IMG/VR virus record: IMGVR_UViG_3300023112_000012
Location: 1-64,000 of that record
Length of the DNA: 64,000 nt
Reading direction: 5' to 3' (one strand)
From: a virus
This document shows, piece after piece, positions 4,277 to 57,566 of the stretch. The notes under the pieces were generated by a model. It worked only from the letters and a program-made list of their open reading frames with translations. It did not search any database and was not told the origin of the DNA. Every line of letters begins with the position of its first letter. The stretch's first letter is position 1. The translations under genes were made by a program, and so were the position numbers.

Positions 4277-4339
4277 CAATTGAGTTGAACAACCTCAACT
4301 CTATAATACTATTATCGCATATCTAAATATAAAAGTCAA
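4277..4339 (-). promoter_or_regulatory. Early promoter with 5' stem-loop leader
   Basis: Minus strand: TTGACT (4339-4334), 17-bp spacer, GATAAT (4316-4311). The transcript should begin with GAGTTGA/TCAACTC pairing around a 6-nt loop (near 4281-4301), then TTGTTAATT and the ribosome site. Same design as at 4819 and 5439. Confidence 0.7.
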
Positions 4340-4785: not shown

Positions 4786-4847
4786 AACTGAGCTGAACTA
4801 ACTCAACCCTACAATTTAATTATCGCATATCTAAATGTAGAAGTCAA
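4786..4847 (-). promoter_or_regulatory. Early promoter with 5' stem-loop leader
   Basis: Minus strand: TTGACT (4847-4842), 17-bp spacer, GATAAT (4824-4819), then a hairpin GGGTTGA/TCAGCTC (with G-T pairs) and TTGTTAATTTA before AAGGAGG. Confidence 0.7.
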
Positions 4848-5398: not shown

Positions 5399-5467
5399 TT
5401 AACAACTGAGGTTAAACTGTCTTAACCTCTATACTTTAATTATAGCATAACCAGACACGAAAGTCAA
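5399..5467 (-). promoter_or_regulatory. Early promoter with 5' stem-loop leader
   Basis: Minus strand: TTGACT (5467-5462), 17 bp, TATAAT (5444-5439). The leader contains an 8-bp perfect stem GAGGTTAA/TTAACCTC followed by CAGTTGTTAATTTA and AAGGAGG. The stem-loop probably stabilises the mRNA 5' end. Confidence 0.75.
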
Positions 5468-13644: not shown

Positions 13645-16614
13645 TTAAACAGCTTTAAATTTTCTTAGAAAATATTCTGATTCTCTTCTAATTTTATTCA
13701 TTTGACTTCTTGGAACGAAAAATCCAACAACTCTTGAAATGTTATCAATAATTTCACCACCACATTCAGCACAAACTTTCAAATTATTATCTCCAACATG
13801 AATATGACCATTTTCACATTTATTAAAATTATAATTAACAGCAAAATGTTGTAAACCACATTCAATTGCATATCTCATAATTTTTTTCATGTCTTCTTTT
13901 GATTTTATTTGACTATCAACATTTATATGACAAATACCACCACCTGATAAAGCTTTGAAAAATATTCCTTCATATTTCATTCTATCAAAAATATCCATAT
14001 CAACAGTTAAAGGAATGAATTGATTTGAATACAATTCAAATGGTTGAACTTCTTCTCCATAAATTATTTTGTCTTTTAGTGCAAATTTAGGAGCAAGTGA
14101 TTCACCAGGCACTTCTTCAAGATTATAATTAACATTTTCATTTTCAGACCACTCAGAAGCTTTATCATTAATATAATTAATAATATTTTTTTCAAGAGCT
14201 ATTACATTTTCTTTAAGTTTTCCATTTTCATCATACATATCATTTCCTGTTAAGTGATACATCATTTCATGCATTCCTAGAATACCAATTGTAGAAAATA
14301 ACATTTTATCAATGTTTATATAGTTTAATGGTTTAACAAATTGAAGAAATCCAGCGTCTGCTCTTTTATGTAATAATTTTCTATGTGCCTTTAATGTTTT
14401 ATGAACCATATCTAGTTGATCATCTAAAATTTCATAAAATCTTTCAATTCTATTTTGATCATCTGATTGAAATTCACTTTCAATTGCTACTCTTGGTAAA
14501 TTAATTGATACAACCCTATGACTACCTACTGATAATCCGCCATTCCCAAATGAATCTGCACCATTTAACTTTGTTTGAGAATTCAATCTGCAATTATGTG
14601 TGTTAATTCCTGTTGGTAATGTAAAATATGGATTTGTTTGATCTTTCATTTCAAAACAATATACATATTCATCTTTATAGATATTTGTTATATTTGTTAT
14701 ATTTTTAATTTTAAAATATATTGTGTTGTTTTTGAATTTATATATGTTTTTCTGTTTAGATTTATGTCTATTTTCATACCATCTAATACAATATAAAACA
14801 TGATTTCTATTAAATTCTTCTCCTCTTATCATAACCTTTTCGTCTGTTCTATCTGAAATATTAATAATACTATTTTTACCAAGCGATGTTATTAAAACTT
14901 CAAAATCTTTGGATAATTGTTCTGATGTTGTATATATTCTATTACTATTTCCACCATCTGTTATATACATACCATCCAAAATTCCCTTTCTAAATTCAAT
15001 CGATTGTAAAATCACATCTAAATTTAAACTCTTTTCATAGCAACATGAACCTTTTACCCAACGTTTAATTATTGTATGAAGCTCTTTTGATGATATAACG
15101 CAAGGATAAACATTATTATATTCTTTATAAAGTTTCATTTTCACATTTAAATTCCACTGTTCAAGAGCTTTAGCTATTATTTTGTTTAATTTTTCATATT
15201 TTTCCTTATTAATACTAAAATTAATTCTATTTTTTTCAGAACTACCATCACCAAGATATGCACCAATCAAAACTCCCTGCTCATAAGTTAAATTTTCGCT
15301 ATGTTCTGGTATAGATTTTGTTTCATTTGTATTAAAAGCAATATAATCATTTTCGGTTAAATCTTTTGTTAATTTTTCACCATCAAATGTTAAATTTAAA
15401 TGATCTTCTGTCATTTTTAAAATTTTATTATTAACAGTTTCAACTTGAAATATTTCTCTATTTTGTTTTAAAATTTTAACCATTTTAGCCTTAGACCAAA
15501 ATCCATTTTGCCAAACTTTAAAATTTTCTCTATCAATCATTCTAGTTTCAACAATTTCCTTTATTGTTGATAATTTAACTCCGTTATTACTTGATTTTGT
15601 TAAGACCATTTGATCGTTTGTAAAACAACAAGAAGCAATTTTACCAACTGAATCAGAAACATATACATTCATAATGCTTTTTGAAATATTATGTTCTGCT
15701 ACGATATCAAAAAATTCTTCATCTAATTCTATTTCATTTTCTTTATCATGTAGAAATGCAGATGTGAGAACTGGAAATCTGTATGGTTCATTTGTTGTAG
15801 GATCTCCTTTACAAAAGAATTTCATATATATTTTCTGAATCTTCATTACATAGTCAAAATCTGGTTTTGTAAAATCAGGAAACATATATCCATTAAATAA
15901 TGCTTCTAAATTATTTCTACAAAAAAGACTTAGATTAGTAAATGGACTCTGAGATCCACGAGAAAATTTATTGTTAAAAATATACACAAGAGATTGAAAA
16001 TGATTTTCTATTTGTTTATCAGTTAGATTTTCTTTTTTTGCATAATATGAATAATTCACAAATAAATCACCTATAGCAACAGCCCCTGCCATTTGGCTAC
16101 TGGACAGATTCATCACTGTCTCAATTACTTGACCAATAAATGATGCTGCTGTTTTTGGTGGTATTGCTACTGGTTCACTCCAAGGTCTACCTTCTATCAT
16201 TATTCGTGATGTTGTTGTTGAAAAACAATAAGGGACCTGTACATTTGTTGGGTCATGTAGGTAAATATCCGAATATATTATAGATTTGAATATTTTATTT
16301 GCTTCTTCTTCTCCATATTCTTTTTCAATCATTCTATAAATTAAAAAATAATTTTCTAATTTTAACATTGGTTTTGATAATTCACTAACATAATTAGCAT
16401 GATTTATACCATTATCAACATTAGCATTAGAATCAATACTTATATCAGCAACATTATCTGTTAGAAAATATTTTTTGGAATTCTTTGCAAAATCTAAATT
16501 ATCCCTACTAATTCCTTCAATTTCTAACATCAATCTACCCTTTTCATTTGAATGAATCTTATTGTATAAATCTGAAAAATTCTCTGGAAAATCCATACTA
16601 AACCTTAATGTCAT
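13645..16614 (-). CDS. nrdD: Anaerobic ribonucleotide reductase large subunit NrdD, with intein
   Basis: 989 aa precursor; about 644 aa after removal of a 345-aa intein. Class III RNR reduces ribonucleoside triphosphates using a glycyl radical. Landmarks: the active-site Cys region IASC|CRLNSQTK (split by the intein), a C-terminal Zn site (CENGH...CAEC), and the glycyl loop RVVGFFVPRSQMNK followed by RRESEYFLRKF. The sequence resembles the NrdD type in anaerobic bacteria and T4. nrdG follows one nucleotide upstream, so they are co-transcribed. Activity depends on intein splicing because the intein sits between catalytic cysteines. Confidence 0.9.
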   Translation of the reverse strand: MTLRFSMDFPENFSDLYNKIHSNEKGRLMLEIEGISRDNLDFAKNSKKYFLTDNVADISIDSNANVDNGINHANYVSELSKPMLKLENYFLIYRMIEKEYGEEEANKIFKSIIYSDIYLHDPTNVQVPYCFSTTTSRIMIEGRPWSEPVAIPPKTAASFIGQVIETVMNLSSSQMAGAVAIGDLFVNYSYYAKKENLTDKQIENHFQSLVYIFNNKFSRGSQSPFTNLSLFCRNNLEALFNGYMFPDFTKPDFDYVMKIQKIYMKFFCKGDPTTNEPYRFPVLTSAFLHDKENEIELDEEFFDIVAEHNISKSIMNVYVSDSVGKIASCCFTNDQMVLTKSSNNGVKLSTIKEIVETRMIDRENFKVWQNGFWSKAKMVKILKQNREIFQVETVNNKILKMTEDHLNLTFDGEKLTKDLTENDYIAFNTNETKSIPEHSENLTYEQGVLIGAYLGDGSSEKNRINFSINKEKYEKLNKIIAKALEQWNLNVKMKLYKEYNNVYPCVISSKELHTIIKRWVKGSCCYEKSLNLDVILQSIEFRKGILDGMYITDGGNSNRIYTTSEQLSKDFEVLITSLGKNSIINISDRTDEKVMIRGEEFNRNHVLYCIRWYENRHKSKQKNIYKFKNNTIYFKIKNITNITNIYKDEYVYCFEMKDQTNPYFTLPTGINTHNCRLNSQTKLNGADSFGNGGLSVGSHRVVSINLPRVAIESEFQSDDQNRIERFYEILDDQLDMVHKTLKAHRKLLHKRADAGFLQFVKPLNYINIDKMLFSTIGILGMHEMMYHLTGNDMYDENGKLKENVIALEKNIINYINDKASEWSENENVNYNLEEVPGESLAPKFALKDKIIYGEEVQPFELYSNQFIPLTVDMDIFDRMKYEGIFFKALSGGGICHINVDSQIKSKEDMKKIMRYAIECGLQHFAVNYNFNKCENGHIHVGDNNLKVCAECGGEIIDNISRVVGFFVPRSQMNKIRRESEYFLRKFKAV
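14593..15627 (-). mobile_element. LAGLIDADG intein in NrdD
   Basis: 345 aa (NrdD residues 330-674). Starts with Cys in CFTNDQMVLTK (block A), has a TxxH-like block B (MTEDHLNLTF), two LAGLIDADG motifs (GVLIGAYLGDG and FRKGILDGMYITDGG), and ends with THN before extein Cys (block G). Both splice-site residues and both endonuclease acidic residues are present, so it looks active for splicing and homing. Insertion separates the two adjacent Cys of IASC/CRL, the conserved active site. Confidence 0.9.
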
Positions 16615-18108: not shown

Positions 18109-18462
18109 CTATGAATATTTTTTCATTACTTTACACATTTTGTCAAAAATATCATCTTTAGAATAAATACCACCAGAACCTTTAGAATTTGAAATTTCAT
18201 CGCGAAATTTTCCATCAATTGTAATTGTTAATTCAACACCTCTAGATTCTTCAATTGTAATATAATTTTCATCTCTAAAATTAACTATTAATTTATCTTC
18301 GTTATGTTCTGCAATTGATACACTATCAAAATAACAATCTTCTCCTAATTCATTTACACAAACATCTGGAAAATTATATCTTATATTTTGTTCCAATAAC
18401 AGAAGTAAATTATAATTTTTATTTGATAATGCTTTATCATTTTTATTTTCTTGTGTGTTCAT
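18109..18462 (-). CDS. Hypothetical protein between gp44 and gp45
   Basis: 117 aa. No match to gp62 or RegA by eye. Acidic/beta-rich centre (YFDSVSIAEHNEDKLIVNFRDENYITI...VELTITIDGKF). Located in the replication cluster, so a replisome-associated role is possible. Ribosome site TAGGAGGATATT; a strong hairpin (18478-18501) precedes it. Confidence 0.5.
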   Translation of the reverse strand: MNTQENKNDKALSNKNYNLLLLLEQNIRYNFPDVCVNELGEDCYFDSVSIAEHNEDKLIVNFRDENYITIEESRGVELTITIDGKFRDEISNSKGSGGIYSKDDIFDKMCKVMKKYS

Positions 18463-18477
18463 AATATCCTCCTAAAT

Positions 18478-18501
18478 TGGGTGGTATATTTCAACCACCC
18501 A
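18478..18501 (-). promoter_or_regulatory. Perfect hairpin between gp45 and the next gene
   Basis: 8-bp perfect stem TGGGTGGT/ACCACCCA around an 8-nt loop, just after the gp45 stop and 9-12 nt before the next ribosome site. There is no T-run, so it is not a standard terminator; it may be a processing or attenuation element. Confidence 0.6.
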
Positions 18502-18514
18502 TTGTTATTATAAC

Positions 18515-28518: not shown

Positions 28519-28546
28519 ATTATACTTATTTTTTTCTATAAGTCAA
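28519..28546 (-). promoter_or_regulatory. Early promoter, class A
   Basis: Minus strand TTGACT (28546-28541), 16-bp spacer ending AATAAG, TATAAT (28524-28519). It overlaps the end of the ThyX-like gene. Confidence 0.75.
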
Positions 28547-29116
28547 GAACTTTTCATATCTTTTTTTGATATCACTCAGATCATAGTCTTTATATTCATT
28601 TCTGAATTGATTGAAAAATCCACAATTGTTCATTTCTGGACATCCAAACCTATACACACATTCAGGCACACAAACAAGATATAGTTCTGGTTCTTCTTCT
28701 TTGAATGTTTCTAGAAGTGATTTCCATGCTTCTCTAGTCTCTTTGTGTGATTGATTACATAACCGTTTTCTAGATATGTTGATGATTGCTTGTGCGTTTG
28801 CCTCACAATTGTGGTTAACTGGTGTGTCTTGTGGTGATTTGTCTCTGTTGTTGTTTGTTCTATCATTTCTTTGTGTGGATATGAAATGAATTGTCCCAAT
28901 TGAATGTCTGCTGAAATGTGTTGCAATCCAACTTTTCAAACCTTTCCACGTCCAGTCTATTTTTAATTTCCTAATTGGTGAATGTTCTGCAATCAATAGA
29001 TTTAGTTTGAATTTTTTAGATGGTTCTTTATCAAGTGGTGATTTATTAACTGTGTTTCTTGCTGCTGAAAGAATACTTGTCCATGTGTTAGATATGTTGT
29101 TTAGAATGACTTTCAA
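28526..29116 (-). CDS. ThyX-like flavin thymidylate synthase-related protein
   Basis: 196 aa. 'ATHFSRHSIGTIHFISTQRNDR' corresponds to the RHR-type signature region of ThyX, and 'ISRKRLCNQSHKETREAWKSL...CVPECVYRFGCPE' to the C-terminal conserved block. ThyX makes dTMP with FAD. It lacks the exact RHRx7S spacing, so activity is not assured. Start ATG at 29116. Confidence 0.5.
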   Translation of the reverse strand: MKVILNNISNTWTSILSAARNTVNKSPLDKEPSKKFKLNLLIAEHSPIRKLKIDWTWKGLKSWIATHFSRHSIGTIHFISTQRNDRTNNNRDKSPQDTPVNHNCEANAQAIINISRKRLCNQSHKETREAWKSLLETFKEEEPELYLVCVPECVYRFGCPEMNNCGFFNQFRNEYKDYDLSDIKKRYEKFLTYRKK

Positions 29117-29140: not shown

Positions 29141-29296
29141 TCAAATGATTAAATTTCTAATATGATTATTTTTCATTCGTTTATATGCTCTAATACTGCT
29201 TCCTATATAAACTTTATTATTAACCAAATTAGTAATTTTATAAATTACACAAATTTCTTTTTTAATTATTTTTTCTAATAATTCTTGACTTTTCAT
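29141..29296 (-). pseudogene. Truncated GIY-YIG endonuclease remnant
   Basis: 51 aa, MKSQELLEK...VIYKITNLVNNKVYIGSS...YKR. This matches the first about 50 residues of the intact 264-aa protein at 56772 (same GIY-YIG region), then ends. It lacks the catalytic Glu and DNA-binding domain. ATG at 29296 with ACGGAG upstream. Confidence 0.7.
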
Positions 29297-29392: not shown

Positions 29393-29400
29393 TATTTATA
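29393..29400 (-). promoter_or_regulatory. Late promoter (TATAAATA)
   Basis: Exact leftward motif; transcription would start just before the three-way-junction element and read into the GIY-YIG remnant. Confidence 0.55.
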
Positions 29401-29413
29401 AAAACATATAGAA

Positions 29414-29442
29414 ACAAAAAAGGCGCCCAAGAAGGACGCCTT
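29414..29442 (-). terminator. Rho-independent terminator
   Basis: Minus strand AAGGCGTCC/GGGCGCCTT (9 bp, one G-T pair), loop TTCTT, followed by a T-run. Terminates the leftward structural gene 29472-30347. Confidence 0.85.
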
Positions 29443-32461: not shown

Positions 32462-33499
32462 TCAAACACCAGTCGACCCAAAACCATTTTCTCCACGATC
32501 GGTTTCATCAAGTTCTTTTACATATTCATAATTTTCTATATTTATTGGAATTGTTAATAACTGTGCTATTCTATCACCAACATTAACTTTAAATGGTTTA
32601 TCTCCAAAATTATATAAAAGAATTTTAACTTCCCCTGTGTACGTTGAATCTATACACCCTGCACCAACTTGAATTCCGTGTTTTACTGATAATCCACTTC
32701 TGGACCATATTATGCCAACATATTCATTTGGAATTTTTATATATAAATCTGTTGATAATAATTTTCTAGCATTTGGTTCAATTATAATTTCTTCATTTGA
32801 TTTTATATCTAACCCAGCATCAAATATATGTCTTTTATATAATTTAGAACCTTTTTGTTTTCCTTTAATTTTTTTATATCTTCCCTTTTCATCTCTTTTC
32901 ATTTTCATGTCTTTTACATGTAATGAAGTATGATCACCCAATGACATAATTTCTAAGTTTTCAATTGTATTATTTAATTTATTTAGATCTTTATGATGAA
33001 TAACAACAGAAGGATCTAAAAATAATTCGTCAAAATCTTTTACACCAATTAAATATTCAGAATCTGGATAATTTGCTCTTAAATGTTCTTCCATTATTAT
33101 TCTATGTAAAAAAATTTTGTTACTACTATTTTTAAATGGATGTGTTAAACATCTCAAATCTAAATATCCGTAATTAGTTAAAGATAAATCACCCTTATAT
33201 GTTGAATTTAATTCTCCTTTTAATCCATATTGATGATTTTTTTCACCTAGAAATTCAGTCTTTTTAAGCTCATATGCACATTCTTTAGAACAACATATTT
33301 TTTCTTTATCTTTTAATCTGTTTAATCTATGAGGTTTAACATGAAATGTTTTTCCACATATTGAACATTTTACGTTATCTGATAATTTTTTTGAAATATC
33401 AGAACATTTTCTAGAACAATATTTTGCTTCTCCTTTCTTAAATCTACTAGGATATATTTCAAATGTTTTTCCACATTGTAAACAAGTAAGTTTAATCAT
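32462..33499 (-). CDS. HNH endonuclease-dUTPase fusion
   Basis: 345 aa. N-terminus has two zinc-ribbon-like motifs (CLQCGKTF...CSRKC and CSICGKTF...CSKEC), then an HNH motif (SVVIHHKDLNKLNNTIENLEIM, about residues 165-186), then a full dUTPase: DAGLDI (motif 1), WSRSGLSVKHG (2), CIDSTYTGEVKILLY (3), GDRIAQLL (4), RGENGFGSTG (5). The domain order is typical of a homing-endonuclease gene fused in frame to a host gene. Whether one protein or processed is unknown. Lies next to a second dUTPase. Confidence 0.8.
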   Translation of the reverse strand: MIKLTCLQCGKTFEIYPSRFKKGEAKYCSRKCSDISKKLSDNVKCSICGKTFHVKPHRLNRLKDKEKICCSKECAYELKKTEFLGEKNHQYGLKGELNSTYKGDLSLTNYGYLDLRCLTHPFKNSSNKIFLHRIIMEEHLRANYPDSEYLIGVKDFDELFLDPSVVIHHKDLNKLNNTIENLEIMSLGDHTSLHVKDMKMKRDEKGRYKKIKGKQKGSKLYKRHIFDAGLDIKSNEEIIIEPNARKLLSTDLYIKIPNEYVGIIWSRSGLSVKHGIQVGAGCIDSTYTGEVKILLYNFGDKPFKVNVGDRIAQLLTIPINIENYEYVKELDETDRGENGFGSTGV

Positions 33500-39255: not shown

Positions 39256-39870
39256 ATGAAAACTACTTTAGGGAAAATAAAATCTTTCAATCCGTGTGTA
39301 CCCGGCTGGAAAAAATTATGTAAATCTTTAGGGACAACAAACCTAGATACTGAAGTTTCAATACTTCAGATTTTAGAAATCAATGGTGTGGAAGATGCTT
39401 TTTGGGCACTTCGCACCCAAGAATATGAAGACTACTGTATTGTCATTGCGGATATTGAAGAATCTACACTTCATATTTTTGAGGAAGAACATCCTAAAGA
39501 TGTTCGACCTAGAAATTTAATTCAAGCTATTAGGAATTACAAAGTACGTAAAATTTCTAAAAAAGAACTTATTACATTTCATAATTCTGCTTGTATTGCT
39601 TATAATGCTGTTGCCTATGATGCTGTTAATACTACTACTGCTGCTGCTACTGCCGCTAATGCTGCTGCTTCTGTTTATGCTGCTGATGCTGCTAATGATA
39701 CTGATGTTGATGCTACTTATGCTTATGCTGCTGTTGTTAGTGCTGCTGTTGCTGCCTATTATGCTGCTGATGCTGATAATGCTGTTGATGCTGCTGATGC
39801 TTATGCTTATGCTAAAGAAAACCAATGGGAGATTAATGAAAATATATTAAGAAAACATTTGGAGAAATAA
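39256..39870 (+). CDS. CVPGW-domain protein with Ala/Asp/Tyr low-complexity repeat
   Basis: 204 aa. The N-terminal half (PCVPGWKKLCKSLG, then ILEINGVEDAFWALR) matches a family found in phages and bacteria (sometimes called putative immunity protein) that often has Ala-rich helical repeats. Residues about 115-190 here consist almost wholly of A, D, V, Y, N, T, encoded by GCT-like triplets. First gene of the operon. Function unknown. Confidence 0.6.
   Translation: MKTTLGKIKSFNPCVPGWKKLCKSLGTTNLDTEVSILQILEINGVEDAFWALRTQEYEDYCIVIADIEESTLHIFEEEHPKDVRPRNLIQAIRNYKVRKISKKELITFHNSACIAYNAVAYDAVNTTTAAATAANAAASVYAADAANDTDVDATYAYAAVVSAAVAAYYAADADNAVDAADAYAYAKENQWEINENILRKHLEK
39600..39815 (+). repeat. 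Imperfect triplet repeat (GCT/GAT/GTT)
   Basis: About 216 nt of near-continuous GCT, GAT, GTT, ACT, AAT codons within the gene above. Slippage-prone; copy number may vary between isolates. Confidence 0.7.
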
Positions 39871-42072: not shown

Positions 42073-43218
42073 TTATATTAAATTTCCTTTACCATCAAAA
42101 ATCATAAACATGAATTCATATCCTTGATTCAAACATGCTTGTCGCTTTGCTAGATTTTTTTCAAGATTAACTTCATATGTATAAGTTGATTTTACTTCTA
42201 TTATTAAGTTTTCAGAAGGAATGTAGATATCGGGTGTATATACTCTATTTTTATCTTCAAATATATACTTAATTTTTGGAACATTTGTTGATTTAGTGAT
42301 AATATCACTTTCTTCATACAACTCAACTAGAAAATCTAATGCTAAATGTTCATATCCTTGAACTAGTCTTGTATTGCCACTAGGCATTGTGTATTGTTTA
42401 GAAGTAAATCTTGATTTTTGATTTTTTTCAAATATTTCTGGATTATGCATAGGATGATCAACGCCATATCTTTCTTGACATGTCTGTTTTGATTTTTCTT
42501 GTTTGTCTTCAGATTGTAAATAATATTCACATCCATATTTTTCTTGACAAGTTTGTTTTAATTTTTCTTTAAATTCTTTTGTTTGCGAATAATGATCAAC
42601 ATCATATTTTTCTTTTATTGTTTCTTTCATTTTGGTTTTCACTTCTTTAGATTGAAGTGGGTAACTAACTCCATGATTATTCATACACGTTTCTTCTTTC
42701 TGCTTCTTTATCTTTGGATCTTTGCTAGGATTACTAACTCCATGATTATTCATACACGTTTCTTCTTTCTGCTTCTTTATCTTTGGATCTTTGATAGGAT
42801 GTTTATATCCAGTTCTTTCAAAATATGTTTGGTTTGATTTTTCTCTAATTTCTTCTGATTTTAAAGGGTTTGTAACTCCATGATTTTTCATGCAAGTTTC
42901 TTCTTTTTGTTTTTTTATTATGTCAGATTTACTTGGGTTATCAACACCATAATTCTTTAACCATGTTTCTTTAGTCTTTTTTTGTACTTCTTTTGAATTA
43001 GTAGAACACTTATTTGAACAAAATCGTCTATATCCTTGTCCAATACTTTTAAATCTTGTTTCTTTTCCACATTCTAAACACACACCTTCATTTTCTTGTT
43101 TAAAATATGTATCATAATATTTTTTAGATTTCATTTTATGAGTTTTTAAATGATTTCCTAAACTTTGAAAACTTTTAAACTCTCTTTCACAAATCTGACA
43201 TTTAATTTTTTCTTTCAT
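42073..43218 (-). CDS. Putative homing endonuclease: C2H2-type zinc fingers, HGV repeats, PD-(D/E)XK-like domain
   Basis: 381 aa. N-terminus has CxxC-H-type finger (CQICEREFKSFQSLGNHLKTH) and a CxxC...C zinc motif (CLECGKETRF...CSNKC), then repeats of about 23 residues with 'KKQKEETCMNNHGVSNPS', then a C-terminal nuclease-like core YTPDIYIPSENLIIEVKSTYTY (D...E-V-K). This domain order is known from phage free-standing endonucleases. It lies opposite to flanking genes, an insertion typical of homing genes. Ribosome site GAGGTTGAATC. Confidence 0.65.
   Translation of the reverse strand: MKEKIKCQICEREFKSFQSLGNHLKTHKMKSKKYYDTYFKQENEGVCLECGKETRFKSIGQGYRRFCSNKCSTNSKEVQKKTKETWLKNYGVDNPSKSDIIKKQKEETCMKNHGVTNPLKSEEIREKSNQTYFERTGYKHPIKDPKIKKQKEETCMNNHGVSNPSKDPKIKKQKEETCMNNHGVSYPLQSKEVKTKMKETIKEKYDVDHYSQTKEFKEKLKQTCQEKYGCEYYLQSEDKQEKSKQTCQERYGVDHPMHNPEIFEKNQKSRFTSKQYTMPSGNTRLVQGYEHLALDFLVELYEESDIITKSTNVPKIKYIFEDKNRVYTPDIYIPSENLIIEVKSTYTYEVNLEKNLAKRQACLNQGYEFMFMIFDGKGNLI
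42664..42793. repeat. Tandem repeat, 61 identical nt with 69-nt period
   Basis: 42664-42724 and 42733-42793 are identical, encoding two HGV repeats of the endonuclease. Recent duplication of the module. Confidence 0.85.
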
Positions 43219-43232
43219 GATTCAACCTCATA

Positions 43233-43247: not shown

Positions 43248-43305
43248 AGGGGCAAACATCAACCTCGTTTGCAAGTTCATTGTGCGTCAACACAATGAAC
43301 ACCCT
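43248..43305 (-). ncRNA. Three-way-junction element, copy 2
   Basis: Minus strand: P1 AGGG/CCCT (43302-43305 with 43248-43251), P2 GTTCATTGTG/CACAATGAAC (10 bp, 6-nt loop), P3 GCAAAC/GTTTGC (6 bp, 9-nt loop), with two-base linker. Same architecture as copy 1, different arm sequences. It precedes the endonuclease gene at 43218. Confidence 0.65.
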
Positions 43306-43335
43306 TTCTATTATTTATTTTTATTTAAATAATTC

Positions 43336-43363
43336 TTGACATTCTTTAAATTATAAGTATAAT
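43336..43363 (+). promoter_or_regulatory. Early promoter, class A
   Basis: TTGACA (43336-43341), spacer 16 ending ATAAG, TATAAT (43358-43363), then the leader GTTGTTCTTTGGAGG. Confidence 0.75.
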
Positions 43364-48996: not shown

Positions 48997-50235
48997 ATGG
49001 ATATGATGGTAGTAAAAAACTTAACATTGAGCGAAGAAAATAATTTTTTTTGTTGTGAATGTGAAAGAACATTTAAAAGTTTATCTGGTCTTAGTATTCA
49101 TGTTAATAGAATGCATAAAGATATAGCTGGAAAAATACTAATAAAATATATTAGACAATTTGTAGAATCTGTAGATGGGTATAAACTTTTAAGTGATGCT
49201 TATATTAATAGTAAAACTATTCTAGAAATTCAGTGTATTAAGTGTCACAAATTCAAGATGAGATGGGATTGCTTTCAACAAGGTCAAAGATGCCCAATTT
49301 GCTGCAATGAATCAAAGAGATTATCAATATCAGAAGTTAAGAAATATATTGAAAGTTTTAAAGATTATAAGCTTTTGTGTAAAGATTATATTAATAATAA
49401 AACTAATCTAAATATGATTTGTCCATATGGTCATGTATTTAAAATGAATTTTGATAGATTTCAACAAGGTCAAAGATGTCCGGTGTGTTATGGTAATAAA
49501 AAGAAAACTATTGAAGAAATTAGAGAATTTGTAGAATCAAAAGAATATAAACTTTTGAGTGATACTTATATTAATAATTCGACAAAATTAGATATGATTT
49601 GTCCAGATGGTCATATATTTAAAATGTGTTGGAATAATTTTATGTTTGGAAATAGATGTCCGGTGTGTTATGGTAATAAAAAGAAAACTATTGAAGAAAT
49701 TAGAAAGTATGTTGAACAAGAAGGTTATATATTATTAAGCAAAGAATATATAAATTCACATAGTAATCTTGAAATAAAATGTTCAAGTGGACATGTATTT
49801 AAAATGAATTGGACAAACTTCAGTAGTGGAAAAAGATGTCCCAAATGTAAAAGGTCTAAAGGGGAAGAAATAATTGCTAAAATATTAGAATCAAATTATA
49901 TAGAGTTTGAAACACAAAAACGGTTTGATGAGTGTAAAAACATATTGCATCTGCCTTTCGATTTTTATATACCATCATTAAACATTCTGATAGAATATGA
50001 TGGCGAACAACACTTTAAACCTTTTAGTTTTAGTAGTAATAGAACTCAGGAAACTATGAACATTAATTTTATTAATATTATGTTGAGAGATGAAATAAAA
50101 ACTAATTTCGCAAGTTCAAATAATATTAAATTGCTTAGAATTTCTTATTACAATTTTTATAATATAGAAGAAATTATCAAAAAACATTTAAATATATGGA
50201 TTAAAAATGTTAATTACAAAAATACAAGAAAATAA
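48997..50235 (+). CDS. EDxHD-type (Vsr-like) homing endonuclease with zinc-finger repeats
   Basis: 412 aa. A C2H2-type finger (CCECERTFKSLSGLSIHVNRMH) is followed by four repeats of about 60-70 residues, each 'CxxGHxFKMxWxxFxxGxRCPxC' (treble-clef-like zinc units). C-terminus: GEEIIAKILE...LPFDFYIPSLNILIEYDGEQHFKPF (E...D...D-G-E-Q-H), then later acidic residues, the EDxHD pattern. Such enzymes are Vsr-like homing endonucleases of T4-like phages. It ends 29 nt into the next gene. Confidence 0.75.
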   Translation: MDMMVVKNLTLSEENNFFCCECERTFKSLSGLSIHVNRMHKDIAGKILIKYIRQFVESVDGYKLLSDAYINSKTILEIQCIKCHKFKMRWDCFQQGQRCPICCNESKRLSISEVKKYIESFKDYKLLCKDYINNKTNLNMICPYGHVFKMNFDRFQQGQRCPVCYGNKKKTIEEIREFVESKEYKLLSDTYINNSTKLDMICPDGHIFKMCWNNFMFGNRCPVCYGNKKKTIEEIRKYVEQEGYILLSKEYINSHSNLEIKCSSGHVFKMNWTNFSSGKRCPKCKRSKGEEIIAKILESNYIEFETQKRFDECKNILHLPFDFYIPSLNILIEYDGEQHFKPFSFSSNRTQETMNINFINIMLRDEIKTNFASSNNIKLLRISYYNFYNIEEIIKKHLNIWIKNVNYKNTRK

Positions 50236-56771: not shown

Positions 56772-57566
56772 ATGAAATGTCAAGAAATTTTAGAAACTAA
56801 ACCATCTGTTTTTGGTAAATATTGCGGGATATATAAAATTGTTAATTTAATTAATAATAAAGTTTATATTGGTTCAAGTGTTGATATTTTTAAAAGATGG
56901 AAAAAGGGTCATTTAAGAACTTTAAATAAAAATGAACACGATAATAAATATTTACAAAGATCTTGGAATAAATATAGTTCTGAAAATTTTGAATTTGAAA
57001 TAGTTAAAATTTGTTCGGAAATGCTTTTATTAGAAATGGAATCATTCTATTTAGATAAATTTTGTGGTTGTAATAGTGATATAAATTATAATTTAATGGA
57101 TCCGTTGAGACTTGAAATAACAAATGAGTATAGAAAATTAGTATCAGAACAAACAAAAGGTTCAAATAATCCAAGAGCTTTAATAAATGAGCAAACAGTA
57201 AAAGAAATTAAAACAATACTAAACATGTGTTACAAATATAAGTTAAAAATAACTACAAAACTTGTTTCTGAAATGTTTAGTGTATCTGAACATATAATAA
57301 GAAATATAAAAAGTGAAAAAACGTGGAAACATGTGTCAATAGATGAAAAAATTTTATACACACAAAAAATACATAGACGTGGTGAAGATAGTATAGACAC
57401 AAATCTAACAAATGATATTGTTAGAGAAATAAAAATTTTATTACAATTAAGAAATGAAACTGAACTTAAACTAACATATAAATTTATTGCAGAAATGTAT
57501 GATATAACATATAGAGTAGTTGAAAAAATAGCATATAACATAACATGGAAACATATTCATATATAA
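56772..57566 (+). CDS. GIY-YIG homing endonuclease
   Basis: 264 aa. GIY motif YCGIYKIVNLINNKVYIGSS, catalytic Arg in RWKKGH and Glu in LLLEMESFYL; C-terminal half has two related helix-turn-helix-like repeats (KLVSEMFSVSEHIIRNI and KFIAEMYDITYRVVEKI) for DNA binding. It is free-standing between gp23 and the recombination genes. ATG after AGAGGTTAGA. Confidence 0.9.
   Translation: MKCQEILETKPSVFGKYCGIYKIVNLINNKVYIGSSVDIFKRWKKGHLRTLNKNEHDNKYLQRSWNKYSSENFEFEIVKICSEMLLLEMESFYLDKFCGCNSDINYNLMDPLRLEITNEYRKLVSEQTKGSNNPRALINEQTVKEIKTILNMCYKYKLKITTKLVSEMFSVSEHIIRNIKSEKTWKHVSIDEKILYTQKIHRRGEDSIDTNLTNDIVREIKILLQLRNETELKLTYKFIAEMYDITYRVVEKIAYNITWKHIHI

Follow-up and report, generated by a model that had tools for sequence, protein, structure and literature searches.

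Two minus-strand loci in the 64,000-nucleotide window, which comes from a 67-kb IMG/VR record, carry a late promoter of the T4 type followed within a few nucleotides by a sequence predicted to fold into a three-way RNA junction, and in two of its three helices the stem letters differ between the copies while the pairing is kept. The junction is read here as the 5'-terminal leader of late mRNAs, which would shield the 5' end and insulate the ribosome-binding site, raising the yield or the lifetime of the message; this function stands at about an even chance or less.

Anatomy and rarity of the two junctions

Copy 2 occupies positions 43305-43248 (minus), and folding bears out the coordinates and layout given for it in an earlier, sequence-only reading of this DNA (P1 of 4, P2 of 10 and P3 of 6 bp). 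P1 (43305-43302/43251-43248) is a 4-bp helix, AGGG/CCCU, that encloses the other two. P2 (43300-43291/43284-43275) has 10 bp and a 6-nt loop (43290-43285), and P3 (43272-43266/43258-43252) has 6 bp plus one G·U pair, with its loop at 43265-43259. The RNA reads AGGG U GUUCAUUGUG-UUGACG-CACAAUGAAC UU GCAAACG-AGGUUGA-UGUUUGC CCCU, and the fold reaches -27.7 kcal/mol over a 116-nt stretch (z = -3.0). Copy 1, at 29382-29327 (minus), has the same fold (z = -3.1), with P1 at 29382-29379/29330-29327, P2 at 29377-29368/29361-29352 and P3 at 29349-29343/29337-29331. Both copies were delimited by folding, alignment, a junction scan and RNAalifold.

The mechanical junction scan, which required a P1 enclosing two adjacent strong hairpins, returned only two loci in the window, copy 1 and copy 2, and no comparable junction in 12 windows simulated under a first-order Markov model or in 2.43 Mb of other DNA. 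At the gathering score Rfam recognised no family at the junctions, where the matches were weak and far below that score; in the window it found two tRNAs only. Hammerhead and twister ribozymes were also considered, and their core motifs are absent.

Conservation of pairing

MAFFT aligned the copies in a common register, and the only gap, of 2 nt, lies in the P3 loop. In this alignment all 21 pairs form in each copy: 10 are unchanged, nine are altered on both sides, and two are altered on one side in a manner compatible with G·U pairing, as RNA would predict. Beside the nine two-sided changes, 11 further pair types were counted. P1 is identical in all four pairs, P2 keeps six of its 10 pairs with the other four changed on both sides, and P3 keeps none of its seven, five being altered on both sides and two on one side only. 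The arms had been said to share almost no sequence, which holds for P3 and is an overstatement for P2. The broader claim of conserved structure with changed sequence is upheld for these two copies of one phage, which make a single evolutionary comparison, as no pair of the 21 is broken.

When the pairing partner was slid by 1-3 columns, pairing fell to 37-45%, and one of 500 shuffles matched the real pairing. RNAalifold, run without a supplied structure, predicted exactly the same 21 pairs. In the late transcript as predicted, the helices form with probabilities of 0.89/0.97 for P1, 0.96/1.0 for P2 and 0.88/0.92 for P3. P1, the UU linker and the start region are conserved between the copies, and the loops are not. 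Since P1 is invariant, the covariation backs P2 and P3 rather than the junction as a whole, which rests on energy and conservation. P2 and P3 are thus conserved mainly as helices, and the case that selection acts on shape near the 5' end is evenly balanced.

The shared flank as a late promoter

The flank described earlier as identical in 20 of 20 positions is indeed so; it has only two occurrences in the window, where 0.09 would be expected, and the identity extends to 23 nt (AAATAAATAATAGAAAGGGTGTT, at 43297-43319, minus, in copy 2; exact match and alignment). It had been regarded as part of an unknown element, and motif enrichment together with T4 spacing identifies it instead as a T4-type late promoter with the first transcribed bases. 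In intergenic DNA no more than 60 nt ahead of predicted genes, TATAAATA ranks first among 56 octamers of the same composition, with 11 sites (six for the runner-up), and in the window it usually lies 25-57 nt from the start codon. Copy 1 has this box in its exact form at 29393-29400 (minus), as located by enrichment and alignment, and the column-aligned box of copy 2, TAAAAATA at 43316-43323 (minus), differs from it by one mismatch; both belong with T4-type late promoters, a class with the box one helical turn before the start, AT-rich DNA downstream and late genes behind it. Late boxes of T4 span positions -13 to -6 relative to the transcript start (PMC1524935), and by this rule transcription would begin at 43310 (minus) in copy 2 and at about 29387 (minus) in copy 1, some 5 nt before P1 in either case.

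The box lies 96 nt from the start codon at one copy and 97 nt at the other. Subtraction of the 56-58-nt junction leaves about 40 nt, an ordinary late leader, so that the junction appears to be inserted where the message begins. About 20 nt 3' of the copy 2 junction the sequence has a Shine-Dalgarno motif, GAGG (43226-43229, minus). A divergent early promoter of the sigma70 type, TTGACA-16-TATAAT (43336-43363, plus), serves plus-strand genes near copy 2, and an ordinary intrinsic terminator of the upstream gene (29420-29442, minus) stands directly before the copy 1 promoter.

Other structured leaders in the window

Among 41 promoter-proximal leaders that were scored, none is as structured as the two with the junction (-23.1 and -20.9 kcal/mol), whereas late leaders at exact TATAAATA boxes without a junction range from -1.4 to -5.8 kcal/mol. 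A related design is seen on early messages, three of which carry one hairpin at their 5' end, behind an early sigma70 promoter (4282-4301, 4790-4809 and 5408-5429, all minus). These hairpins are placed between the start and a shared leader, TTGTTAATT, and their stems differ yet stay paired. The same leader occurs without a hairpin at four early leaders (8305 minus, 13494 minus, 22238 minus and 39229 plus), and the tail of copy 2, GTTAATCTATTTA, resembles it. As the early hairpins hold the same start-proximal position, structure at the 5' end seems to be a recurring design of this phage, of which the junction would be an elaborate late form, and this suggests a reusable 5'-end architecture. A further leader hairpin, GGGTGGTTGAAATATACCACCC (18463-18514, minus), lies just upstream of the Shine-Dalgarno sequence of gene 18109-18462.

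Genes behind the two leaders

Copy 2 is followed by a full-length homing endonuclease gene (42073-43218, minus), inserted antisense to its neighbours, whose product consists of a C2H2 zinc finger, a repeated middle and a DUF7487 C-terminal part. It matches Pfam PF24308 (3e-81) and PF13912, and the homing endonuclease family PHROG 3339 (6e-35). Copy 1 is followed by a truncated GIY-YIG endonuclease remnant of 51 residues (29141-29296, minus), with matches to PF19835 (8e-5) and PF01541 (2e-4) that are both just under the cut-off. The sequence-only reading had placed an endonuclease gene on the same strand after each copy; the placement and the copy 2 gene stand, and what follows copy 1 is only the remnant. 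As a marker of endonuclease genes the junction fails, since the copy 1 endonuclease is truncated and the other endonuclease genes of the window lack a junction, that at 48997 (plus) having a plain late promoter and the GIY-YIG gene at 56772 (plus) an early one. The leader accompanies endonuclease units, but not every such unit has one, and an intact endonuclease is not required.

Within the DUF7487 endonuclease gene, near-identical tandem units of 69 nt (42659-42934, minus) are 96% identical between two of them, which indicates a recently expanded repeat array. The next gene in the copy 1 unit (28526-29116, minus) encodes a ThyX-like protein with a weak match to PF02511 (2.7e-4, below the cut-off); its sequence contains CVPECVYRFGCPEMNNC, a Cys-rich motif, and translation probably starts at a TTG preceded by AGGAG.

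Proposed function of the leader

In the proposed mechanism, the late promoter would start transcription about 5 nt upstream of P1, the first 60 nt or so of RNA would fold into a compact three-way junction, and a normal AU-rich leader of about 40 nt with its own Shine-Dalgarno sequence would follow. The junction would guard the 5' end of the late transcript against pyrophosphohydrolase or 5'-end-dependent decay and would insulate the ribosome-binding site from upstream sequence, and the outcome would be a higher yield or a longer lifetime of the late endonuclease message. Hairpins at the 5' end make mRNA more stable in E. coli and in B. subtilis, and enzymes of the RppH type need at least two unpaired 5' nucleotides, the B. 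subtilis enzyme preferring at least three (PMC3997798). From the inferred start, five unpaired nucleotides are predicted ahead of P1, which may suffice for RppH-type enzymes and so weakens the role in decay protection; with this many free, protection may be incomplete, and the function has an even chance at best. Against the leader role it also counts that most late genes lack a junction and that the copy 2 box has one mismatch. Protection of the 5' end together with insulation of the late message would be the best-supported option, and the leader is probably an mRNA-protecting or expression-tuning cap.

A less likely possibility is that a start-site-anchored junction module was acquired, together with its late promoter, by unrelated endonuclease units, and that a phage or host factor recognises its shape instead of its stem letters. 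If true, such a modular, shape-read junction would be a new class of structured late-leader RNA.

An RNA operator, at which a phage or host protein acting as a translational or decay regulator would read P1 or the linkers and the shape instead of the stem letters, is unlikely. The conservation of P1, the UU linker and the start region beside freely changing stems would suit such a site, and the RNA-binding regulators of T4 include gp43, gp32 and RegA (PMC3014915), but there is no known binding partner, the loops differ between the copies, and only two sites occur in 67 kb.

It is equally doubtful that the element is a promoter/stem-loop cassette of the PeSL kind, spreading by recombination and serving solely as a promoter for a newly arrived gene. 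PeSLs mediate gene shuffling in T4-like phages (Arbiol 2010 and Comeau 2014, as cited in PMC4503421). The block shared by the two copies runs from the promoter box to the end of P1 and precedes two unrelated endonucleases, one of them broken, and the phage also has early leaders that combine a promoter with a hairpin. Recent spread, however, should have preserved the stem letters, whereas here the stems have diverged with the pairing kept. PeSLs resemble the present element as short modules of promoter and stem-loop that recur at several places in one genome, but they unite early sigma70 promoters with terminator stem-loops; here the promoter is late and the junction is 5'-terminal and no good terminator, there being no terminator-like site in copy 2 and a weak one in copy 1.

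A timing switch of the kind described for I-TevI, segB and Aeh1 mobE, in which the Shine-Dalgarno sequence would be hidden in read-through RNA and exposed in late RNA, is likewise improbable. In those genes a hairpin hides the ribosome-binding site until the late promoter truncates it, and such switches are known for several T4-type endonucleases (PMC2988022). The same class of gene and the same late promoter beside the structure are found here (with the copy 1 endonuclease truncated), and promoter-encoded A/U sequence can lengthen P1 in read-through RNA. Pairing of the ribosome-binding site in read-through RNA and its release in late RNA were not seen: computed accessibility of the Shine-Dalgarno sequence in late versus read-through RNA is 0.26 versus 0.05-0.30 for copy 1 and 0.28 versus 0.20-0.63 for copy 2, values that are about equal and give no consistent switch. 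Unlike in T4, the entire junction follows the start and is kept in the late transcript, and copy 1 has a terminator upstream of it.

It is very unlikely that the arms are DNA palindromes, either stems kept perfect without selection on RNA by template-switch (quasipalindrome) mutagenesis, a process able to repair imperfect palindromes, or operators for autorepression by the endonuclease. They are inverted repeats just downstream of a promoter, and I-TevI autorepresses its own late promoter (PMC2988022), but the stem letters differ between the copies and would call for two different repressors, the closure of P1 around both arms would be superfluous for DNA sites, and the G·U pairs, at 57-67 in copy 1 and at 58-66 in copy 2, disrupt the symmetry of the DNA and not the pairing of the RNA, which favours RNA over DNA. 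An intrinsic terminator, a G+C-rich stem with a T run behind it, is rejected, and with it the earlier reading's own refuting case of hairpins explained as ordinary terminators: copy 2 has none, in copy 1 only P2 passes the pattern, weakly and marginally, with three G-C pairs and an interrupted T run, and the structure is located right after a promoter.

Search for relatives

The flank is not widespread in the viral and genome contigs scanned, so that the other refuting case of the earlier reading, the flank common without hairpins, did not arise either. Scans of viral contigs for a 17-mer of the flank, for the flank with P2 allowing a gap, and for the flank with P1 closure gave other matches without a three-way junction, as did an 18-mer scan of genome contigs, and a scan of viral contigs for the late box with the flank found no three-way junction among the other matches listed. 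A covariance model, run over the window, T4 and 40 other phage or virus records (among them Lak phages, a Vibrio phage, a Synechococcus phage and 34 IMG/VR records), recovered only the two known copies. Most of the structure is missing from its weak match in LR756500 (E 0.17), and hairpins noted in three other records follow a capsid gene and look like terminators. The upstream regions of DUF7487 homologues in four records have no such leader. Beyond two near-identical contigs of the same metagenome, no close relative of the phage was found in the collections, the best gp20 in other phages being at most 38% identical, and for this reason absence of the element elsewhere is weak evidence.

Comparison with known leaders

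Homing endonucleases of phages must fit the expression programme of the phage, and in T4 the structure of leader RNA is one route. The leader hairpins of I-TevI, I-TevII, I-TevIII, segB and Aeh1 mobE resemble the present case in phage type, endonuclease gene and adjacent late promoter. There, a single hairpin occupies the ribosome-binding site by pairing and is absent from RNAs begun at the late promoter, whereas the late transcript here contains the entire three-way junction, which shows no selective masking of that site. Closest among the published cases is seg43 of Aeromonas phage 25, in which a highly stable structure ahead of a GIY-YIG endonuclease leaves out the ribosome-binding site (PMC2988022); it differs as a single hairpin that touches the Shine-Dalgarno sequence, in a split gene 43 region, and has no three-way junction. 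The leader stem-loops of ompA, papA and aprE are similar in that structure stands a few nucleotides from the 5' end and the stem letters are secondary; they are single stem-loops of bacterial genes, and a stabilising role for the present junction is an inference by comparison.

Structured leaders on endonuclease genes of T4-like phages are already known, and what is new is a 5'-terminal three-way junction in the late transcript. If the proposed reading is true, it would be a structurally richer route, a 5'-terminal junction common to unrelated endonuclease units with helices kept by compensation. The leader RNA is small, about 60 nt, and directly testable.

The phage

The window covers part of the genome of a divergent T4-like phage, with a gp20-like portal, a gp23-like major head protein, UvsX, UvsY, a clamp loader and a gp46/47-like nuclease. 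It also encodes a class III anaerobic ribonucleotide reductase of 989 amino acids (13645-16614, minus; best match PHROG 25611), which suggests an anaerobic host. The product of 32462-33499 (minus) combines a weak HNH-like region (residues 1 to about 212) with a dUTPase domain (227-344), a possible endonuclease-dUTPase fusion or insertion. Dense in-frame repeats of 9-15 nt at 39585-39819 (plus) give a tract rich in Ala, Asp and Tyr within the ORF 39256-39870.
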